This document shows, piece by piece, positions 34,853 to 36,617 of a stretch of DNA of 64,000 nucleotides. Below the pieces are notes generated by a model that saw nothing but the letters and a program-made list of their open reading frames with translations, was not told the origin of the DNA and did no database searches. The translations under genes and the position numbers were made by a program. Each line of letters opens with the position of its first letter. Position 1 is the first letter of the stretch. The DNA is from Gammaproteobacteria bacterium MedPE (GTDB lineage: Bacteria > Pseudomonadota > Gammaproteobacteria > Enterobacterales > Psychrobiaceae), in the NCBI GenBank assembly GCA_001874365.1, contig MPDF01000005.1, positions 1 through 64,000 on the forward strand. Reading direction: 5' to 3'.

Positions 34853-35704
34853 ATGAGTAATTTAATTCAACAAATAGCAAGTAAAAGCGTGTTCGCCAGA
34901 GGCGAAGTTGCTTTGGTTGGGGCGGGCCCAGGTGATCCCGAGTTGTTAACTATTAAGGCGTTACGTTTTATTGAACAAGCTGATGTTGCTGTTTATGATC
35001 GCTTAGTTAGCCCGGAAATCATGTCATTGCTCAGCGACGACTGTGAATTAATTTATGTTGGTAAAAAACAAGCCGATCATCGTTTAACTCAAGATAAAAT
35101 TAATGAATTACTAGCAGAACAAGCCAAGTTAGGTAAACGTGTTTTACGTCTTAAAGGTGGCGATCCCTTTATATTTGGTCGTGGTGGTGAAGAAGCGCTT
35201 CATTTATTGGCTCAAGGAGTCAGCTGTCATGTGGCACCGGGAATGACTGCTGCTTCATCCTGTGCAGCCTATGCTGGCATACCGCTAACTCATCGTGGTG
35301 TTGCACAAGGCTGTAGTTTTATTACGGGTCATCTGCAGACCGAGGGTCGCTTGGATTTACCATGGCCTGCGTTGAGTATTGATTCGCAAACTATTGTTTT
35401 TTATATGGGTATTAATACGTTAGAAACAATCAAGCAGCAGCTGATAGCTCATGGGCGTAGCCCTGATACGCCTGCTGCAATTATTGAGAAAGGAACGCGC
35501 CCCGAGCAAAAAACAATTCGTGGGACCTTAACGTCATTACCTGAGTTAGTTAAGCAACACGATATAAAGCCGCCTTCATTAATTATTATTGGTCAGGTGG
35601 TTAATCAGTTTGACGAGCAGAATTTAAATAATAACGGCTATTTTCAAGCCATAGAGTCCGAAGATGCAGTATTTTCCGATTTTCGTCGATACACAGCAGC
35701 TTAA
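34853..35704 (+). CDS. cobA: uroporphyrinogen-III C-methyltransferase (SUMT)
   Basis: Two SAM-dependent methylations convert uroporphyrinogen III to precorrin-2 for siroheme (and B12). It contains VGAGPGDPELLTIKAL, YDRLVSPEIM, LRLKGGDPFIFGRGGEEA, PGMTAASSCAAYAGIPLTHRG and VFYMGIN. At 283 aa it is a single-domain SUMT, equivalent to the C-terminal half of CysG. Its last 41 bases overlap the next gene, which holds the other CysG activities, so the pair functions as a split siroheme synthase. Confidence 0.95.
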   Translation: MSNLIQQIASKSVFARGEVALVGAGPGDPELLTIKALRFIEQADVAVYDRLVSPEIMSLLSDDCELIYVGKKQADHRLTQDKINELLAEQAKLGKRVLRLKGGDPFIFGRGGEEALHLLAQGVSCHVAPGMTAASSCAAYAGIPLTHRGVAQGCSFITGHLQTEGRLDLPWPALSIDSQTIVFYMGINTLETIKQQLIAHGRSPDTPAAIIEKGTRPEQKTIRGTLTSLPELVKQHDIKPPSLIIIGQVVNQFDEQNLNNNGYFQAIESEDAVFSDFRRYTAA

Positions 35705-36617
35705 TGTTTTAGTGGTTGGCGGTGGCGAAGTTGCCACCCGAAAAGTAGAGCTTCTACTTAAGAGTCATGCCTGTATAACTGTGGTAGCTCCTGATTTATC
35801 TCATGATATTCAGACACTTGTCAATGAAGGACGTGTCGAGCATATCGATGGTCTTTATCATGAATCTATGTTGGCGGGTCGTCGGCTTGTTTTTGTTGCA
35901 ACCGCTAATAATGAACTAAATGCTCAAATTAGTACGCAAGCCAAAGCACGTAACATTTTTGCCAATGTTGTTGATTCACAAGCGCTATGTCATTTCATTA
36001 CCCCGTCTATTATCGACCGTTCTCCGATGGTTTTTGCCATAAGTAGCGAAGGCGCTGCACCAGTACTGGTGCGTTATTGGCGTGAGCGATTAGAAAGTAT
36101 CATTCCATTGGTGCTGGGTAAGGTTGCAAGCTTTTCTGGTGCCAAGCGTCAAACAATCAAAGACAGATTTAGTGATGGTAATCAGCGACGTCGCTTTTGG
36201 GAGCGTTTTTTTTCGTCGGGTGACAGTGATAATGTGTCAAAGTTAGACGGGCTATTTGAACGATTGCTAAATAAAGAACAACAGGTCGATGGTGTGGACG
36301 GTGAGCTTTATATGATACAAACAACTGATGCACAAATGTTATCTCTGGCAGCTCTGCGTCATATGCAGCAATCTGATATTGCGTTAGTTGATGATAATAT
36401 TGATGACCAAATTATTGAGCTAGTTCGGCGAGATGCGAATATTTCAAAATTAAATCAATTAGATAGATTAAATCAGATCGAACGATTATTAAAAGATAAT
36501 CAACGGGTGTGTATCTTAACTAATGAACCCTTGGCGGAATGGCAAGGTGTTTATCAACAATTTTCTGAAGGTTTCACGGTGCGTCAGTTTAATTCTGCGC
36601 TATCAATTAACGAGTGA
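35664..36617 (+). CDS. precorrin-2 dehydrogenase / sirohydrochlorin ferrochelatase with decayed SUMT-like tail
   Basis: Equivalent to the N-terminal half of CysG: NAD-dependent oxidation of precorrin-2 and iron insertion to give siroheme. The Rossmann motif VVGGGEVATRKVELLL is at residues 17-32. NVVD (D104) and FAISSEGAAP (S128) keep the catalytic aspartate and the serine of E. coli CysG at the same numbers. Residues ~150-185 give the CysG dimer region (RRRFWERFF). Residues ~212-290 then align with the start of SUMT (GELYMIQTTDAQ, ALRHMQQSDIALVDDN, IIELVRRDAN) but lack GAGPGD and GGDPFIFGRG, so this domain should have no methyltransferase activity. cobA just upstream supplies it. Confidence 0.9.
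   Translation: MQYFPIFVDTQQLNVLVVGGGEVATRKVELLLKSHACITVVAPDLSHDIQTLVNEGRVEHIDGLYHESMLAGRRLVFVATANNELNAQISTQAKARNIFANVVDSQALCHFITPSIIDRSPMVFAISSEGAAPVLVRYWRERLESIIPLVLGKVASFSGAKRQTIKDRFSDGNQRRRFWERFFSSGDSDNVSKLDGLFERLLNKEQQVDGVDGELYMIQTTDAQMLSLAALRHMQQSDIALVDDNIDDQIIELVRRDANISKLNQLDRLNQIERLLKDNQRVCILTNEPLAEWQGVYQQFSEGFTVRQFNSALSINE

Follow-up and report, generated by a model that had tools for sequence, protein, structure and literature searches.

A short CysG-derived protein with a degenerate methyltransferase lobe that may serve its dehydrogenase/chelatase site

Within the window, by which we mean the whole 64,000-nucleotide stretch analysed from Gammaproteobacteria bacterium MedPE (contig MPDF01000005.1), a stand-alone gene for uroporphyrinogen-III C-methyltransferase (SUMT) runs into a CysG-type gene whose product ends in the remains of a second SUMT domain, which raises the question of why a protein would keep part of a methyltransferase that has lost its methyltransferase motifs. 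We hold with good confidence that this short CysG is a secondarily bifunctional CysG, in which the SUMT N-lobe was kept because its RRD(A) loop serves the dehydrogenase/chelatase site. The features on which the argument depends are as follows.

34853 to 35704, plus strand: cobA, stand-alone SUMT (uroporphyrinogen-III C-methyltransferase; TIGR01469 302.9 bits, cut-off 185)
35664 to 36617, plus strand: short cysG, 317 aa (TIGR01470 212 bits, cut-off 62.3), its product a predicted precorrin-2 dehydrogenase/sirohydrochlorin ferrochelatase with a degenerate SUMT N-lobe
35664 to 36278, plus strand: CysG-B module, residues 1-205 (Pfam NAD_binding_7 and CysG_dimeriser; active-site residues)
35973 to 35975, plus strand: codon of D104 (position checked), the general base in CysG (PMC7018833)
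36045 to 36047, plus strand: codon of S128 (position checked), the phosphorylation site of Salmonella CysG (PMC7018833)
36300 to 36518, plus strand: core of the SUMT remnant, residues 213-285, from N-lobe strand 1 to strand 4, with SAM loop and VGK absent
36366 to 36368, plus strand: codon of Q235 (Salmonella Q240 by alignment), a CysG-specific glutamine
36426 to 36437, plus strand: R255-R256-D257-A258, equivalent to Salmonella R260-R261-D262-A263 by phmmer and multiple alignment
36519 to 36614, plus strand: C-terminal end, residues 286-317, a predicted helix, strand and helix completing the lobe, weakly constrained in sequence

The two genes overlap by exactly 41 bases (35664 against 35704), as the initial annotation had it, and the upstream cobA has its GAGPGD, VGK and GGDPFIFGRGGEE motifs all intact. 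The motifs that had been quoted for short CysG were likewise all found, with D104 and S128 of the front half in place. This half is a CysG-B module, made up of a Rossmann, a dimerisation and a helical domain, that has its full catalytic set, and the pocket residues K27, N101, D104, S128, G130, P133, R137, R140, R162, K166, R175 and W179 are all present, including the D104, S128, P133, R137 and R162 that go with the N-terminal dehydrogenase/chelatase module of a CysG. The functional C-terminal SUMT of a CysG, with GxGPGD, VGK, GGDPF and both lobes, is missing, and the protein scores 249 bits with PRK10637, under the full-length cut-off of 400. As a SUMT with intact SAM and uroporphyrinogen-III sites it scores only 14.5 bits with TIGR01469 against the cut-off of 185, the motifs being absent.

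That the C-terminus of the frame is a degenerate SUMT domain, as first proposed, is confirmed by profile, alignment and fold. When compared by phmmer, residues 1-259 match residues 1-264 of Salmonella CysG in one unbroken stretch (E 9e-50), and the tail alone has profile similarity both to the NCBIfam CysG model (E 1.3e-7, profile positions 227-265) and to SUMT profiles (E 6e-4 to 5e-3). The suggested alignment of short CysG with the CobA of the window also succeeds, over 66 residues at 29% identity (BLASTP E 1e-5). A profile of 49 short-form tails from the main group scored 97.8% (E 7.5e-13) in hhalign against 26 stand-alone SUMTs, whereas 19 of 20 column-shuffled controls scored 0.1-0.5% and one reached 23.7%; tails of the f7 group gave 96.5%, and the single tail from family f23 gave 88%. 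A Pfam scan of the tail returned nothing besides a match to NucS_C (E 0.1-0.5), which we set aside as chance.

The predicted structure extends this similarity. The AlphaFold2 model built on 40 short forms (pLDDT 93, pTM 0.78) has, after the linker, a strand (214-219), a helix (228-236), a strand (239-242), a helix (248-251), the RRDA loop (255-258), a strand (259-262), a helix (265-277), a strand (281-286), a helix (290-301), a strand (305-309) and a final helix (312-316); in the model this alpha/beta order is the one expected of a tetrapyrrole methylase N-lobe, and there is no C-lobe. The similarity to SUMT thus stands, but not the stop that had been placed near residue 260-290, as the predicted fold takes in SUMT strands 3-5 and reaches the C-terminus. 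The top Foldseek match is Salmonella CysG (1pjq_A, TM 0.85 by query length, 333 columns), and SUMT and CbiF structures match over about 113-124 columns. A similar picture emerges from a second model, of the f7 short lineage (pLDDT 88), with a TM of about 0.78-0.79 to 1pjs_A and 110 columns at 2.4 A to the SUMT 1ve2_A. The comparison with CysG that had been called for therefore finds the SUMT N-lobe kept, and neither of the two outcomes that had been named as refuting came about. Of the CysG dimer, chain A matches both models along the whole chain, over about 330 columns, and chain B fits less well, consistent with the asymmetric CysG linker described in PMC7018833. Whole-chain superposition on Salmonella CysG would place the RRD residues in the dehydrogenase/chelatase pocket.

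What selection has kept in this lobe was read from an alignment of 58 short forms, 67 fused CysG proteins and 26 stand-alone SUMTs. R255 and D257 are present in 100% of the short forms, and R256, A258, L226 and Q235 in 98%, while the SAM-loop glycines (0% and 28%), V263-G264-K265 (17%, 0% and 3%) and the GGD motif are lost, bearing out the claim that the SAM loop and GGDPF are gone. Among positions invariant in the fused forms, just one of the 22 shared with stand-alone SUMTs is retained at 90% or more in short forms, 21 falling below, compared to four of the five that are fusion-specific (Fisher p 0.0014, with columns that are not fully independent). Once more lineages were included, the RRDA motif is found in 72/73 short forms and 72/82 fused forms; in stand-alone SUMTs R255 and R256 are each found in 0% and D257 in 23%. 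This retention is not an artefact of the homologue search, since the 200-residue front half supplied most of the search score and tail-less proteins came back as well. Mean pairwise identity of the lobe among short forms is 36% for residues 213-252 and 24% for 259-285.

The sole short form lacking RRDA (L122 of genome G028, family f20) has RQDC in a 283-aa protein on a very long branch, and its f20 neighbour L166 keeps RRDA. Q235 is found in 100% of fused forms and about 27% of stand-alone SUMTs; PMC7018833 gives no role for its Salmonella counterpart, Q240.

In Salmonella CysG the SUMT module contributes R260, R261 and D262, which crystallography and mutagenesis showed to make up the back of the dehydrogenase/chelatase pocket (PMC7018833). 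There R260 binds the acetyl group of ring C, R261 contributes charge close to ring B, and D262 is positioned above the ring, opposite to D104 (PMC7018833). In the R260A variant dehydrogenase activity is abolished and cobalt-chelatase activity is down to about 1.5%, R261A cuts both activities and D262 variants are reduced, the R261 and D262 mutants retaining some activity (PMC7018833); the yeast enzyme Met8p functions without equivalents of any of the three (PMC7018833). Given this residual activity and Met8p, the triad is, by analogy, better seen as helpful to the chemistry than as strictly required.

From the homology, conservation and fold we infer that the triad would do the same job in the short forms, and that the lobe would persist for this reason. 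A stand-alone SUMT would supply precorrin-2, after which the fused SUMT domain could lose its SAM site, its uroporphyrinogen site and the whole C-lobe, with the N-lobe scaffold staying as the holder of the RRD(A) loop in the dehydrogenase/chelatase site. By homology to the Salmonella enzyme, the acetyl carboxylate of ring C would be bound by R255 (R260), R256 (R261) would bring a positive charge close to ring B, and D257 (D262), above the ring and opposite to D104, would orient the arginine; short CysG would then carry out both the dehydrogenation of precorrin-2 and the iron insertion that yields siroheme.

The idea that a CysG fusion came before the degenerate form agrees with the dominance of the fused form elsewhere in Gammaproteobacteria, which we take to be ancestral as nearly all listed homologues in a class-wide sample have frames of at least 460 aa. 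All sampled members of the window's genus, with a named Psychrobium among this group, carry a short form; others come from Moritella, Shewanella and Vibrionaceae (Vibrio/Photobacterium), with further scattered cases in families f7, f8, f12, f20 and f23, of which f7 groups with fused Alteromonadaceae. The remnant tail is thus conserved across several marine lineages, a point on which the initial annotation had asked for evidence. In a 63-row tree of residues 1-186 the short forms fall in three places. A 78-row tree with more lineages gives 6 changes in the best tree and 5-6 over bootstraps, at least 3 of them forced by well-supported branches, its deepest branches being weak and the f20 rows lying on very long branches of unsure placement. 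The tree favours five or six independent losses of SUMT, essentially all retaining RRDA. A recent single event limited to this genus is ruled out by the short forms in Shewanella, Moritella, Vibrionaceae and the other scattered lineages. Likewise, a local split of cysG into cobA and a remnant is unlikely, as cobA has no RRDA and the two are 29% identical over 66 residues.

Two genomes of family f12 (L172 in G207 and L173 in G114) hold a fused CysG plus a short, RRDA-bearing paralogue. Tail-less CysG-B homologues of 192-215 aa are also found in the same order (L167, L168, L169 and L171 in family f3; L170 in f18), the f3 proteins having an NVVD motif with D104 kept. Such homologues count against a need for the RRD lobe, and they provide a useful natural control for that need.

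The suggestion that a stand-alone SUMT took over is supported, as a further SUMT-like frame was found in 32/32 short-form genomes tested; for one of them (G031) the match is no more than a 481-aa frame at 36%. In the window's assembly cobA is the only SUMT found, the other two TP_methylase matches being RsmI-like and borosin-type. Sulfite or nitrite reductase domains, found in 10/10 relatives tested, speak for the reading we favour; on the other side, no sulfite reductase turned up in the draft genome that the window comes from, an assembly 81% complete. Elsewhere in this genome, outside the window, a TP_methylase-family protein (L113; G000:C166:10812-11429) closely matches the borosin alpha-N-methyltransferase SonM (7ltc_A, phmmer E 2e-65), a likeness that suggests a split borosin RiPP pathway.

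Several other explanations for the remnant have to be weighed. Were it a pseudo-domain decaying neutrally on its way to deletion, one could point to its last 32 residues (286-317), where dN/dS is 0.4-0.7, well above the remnant core, and to short-form lengths that vary from 283 to 388 aa. However, dN/dS for residues 213-285 is 0.06-0.18 by NG86, close to the 0.05-0.12 of the front half, and 0.12, 0.25 and 0.41 by YN00, in each case for computable pairs only, these values coming from a few pairs of close relatives with high dS, several of which are saturated under NG86. The purifying selection that had been asked about is thus seen in the core, and RRDA has survived in whole bacterial families and through what are probably five or six separate losses. 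On these two grounds we reject a pseudogene or neutral tail, and we give next to no credence to decay.

The lobe might instead be a structural or dimerisation element, stabilising the CysG-B dimer or shielding the surface left by the loss of SUMT, with RRD kept for packing. Its fold is indeed kept well beyond RRD, and Q235 and L226 are kept with it, but CysG-B has a domain of its own for dimerisation (PMC7018833), and that domain is intact here; apart from Q235 and L226 strict retention is confined to the active-site triad and A258 while the rest of the lobe varies. The original proposal of a structural dimer contact is not supported as the main role, for the same reason: the strictly kept residues are RRDA and Q235, with L226 nearly so, and RRD are chelatase-site residues in Salmonella. 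We consider a purely structural role unlikely, though the lobe may also do some structural work beside its active-site one. Less probable still is a docking or sensing module that pairs with the stand-alone SUMT for precorrin-2 channelling or binds a tetrapyrrole- or SAM-related regulatory ligand. The N-lobe does belong to a normally dimeric SUMT domain, and in the window's genus cobA and short cysG are usually neighbours, overlapping or nearly so. In nearly all other short-form genomes searched, however, the SUMT gene lies far from short cysG (about 6 kb away in G028), the SAM loop and VGK are lost, and no conserved surface was seen beyond RRDA and Q235.

Short CysG can be set beside its closest known systems. 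It has in common with CysG of Salmonella and E. coli (PRK10637; PDB 1PJQ and 6P5X) the first 205 or so residues with the catalytic set, and an N-lobe and RRDA loop that would be placed alike, in an alignment continuous to residue 264, but it has no SAM loop, VGK, GGDPF or SUMT C-lobe and needs a separate SUMT. Yeast Met8p and the stand-alone enzymes of PIRSF004999 would be expected to share its two activities and its use of a separate SUMT. Met8p lacks the SUMT-derived lobe and RRD (PMC7018833), whereas short CysG has a SUMT N-lobe by profile and fold, and Met8p matches it weakly (E 0.57 by sequence, TM 0.52 by fold). SirC of Bacillus (PDB 3DFZ) has a homologous Rossmann and helical scaffold, but is a shorter, monofunctional dehydrogenase without D104 (PMC7018833) or a remnant. 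Stand-alone SUMT/CobA proteins (PF00590, TIGR01469) have an N-lobe homologous to the remnant over about 110-125 structural columns; they lack RRDA, and short CysG lacks their methyltransferase motifs. With the sequence features of the bifunctional class in place and cobA present, an apt family-level name would be bifunctional precorrin-2 dehydrogenase/sirohydrochlorin ferrochelatase derived from CysG, the protein being neither CysG itself nor Met8p.

Pennington et al. (2020) raised the possibility that the SUMT-module residues explain the benefit of the CysG fusion, with D262 not strictly required (PMC7018833). The short forms are a natural experiment on this question, in which the methyltransferase is removed and one can ask what selection keeps; at the level of sequence, RRDA in 72/73 of them is an argument that the borrowed residues are important in vivo, probably in binding the tetrapyrrole and in choosing iron over cobalt. 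We think it fairly probable that fusion made the chelatase dependent on residues of its partner, so that the inactive domain was no longer free to be deleted when a separate SUMT stepped in, and that five or six lineages then dropped the methyltransferase independently while a residual lobe went on carrying the Arg-Arg-Asp loop. Our searches of the open literature found no report of the short forms or of this pattern. The finding offers a functional reading for a CysG-type stretch in Vibrio, Photobacterium, Shewanella, Moritella and others that has no model of its own in Pfam or NCBIfam scans and, if true, it would be a naturally replicated case of an enzyme domain turned into a trans-domain part of the active site of another enzyme.
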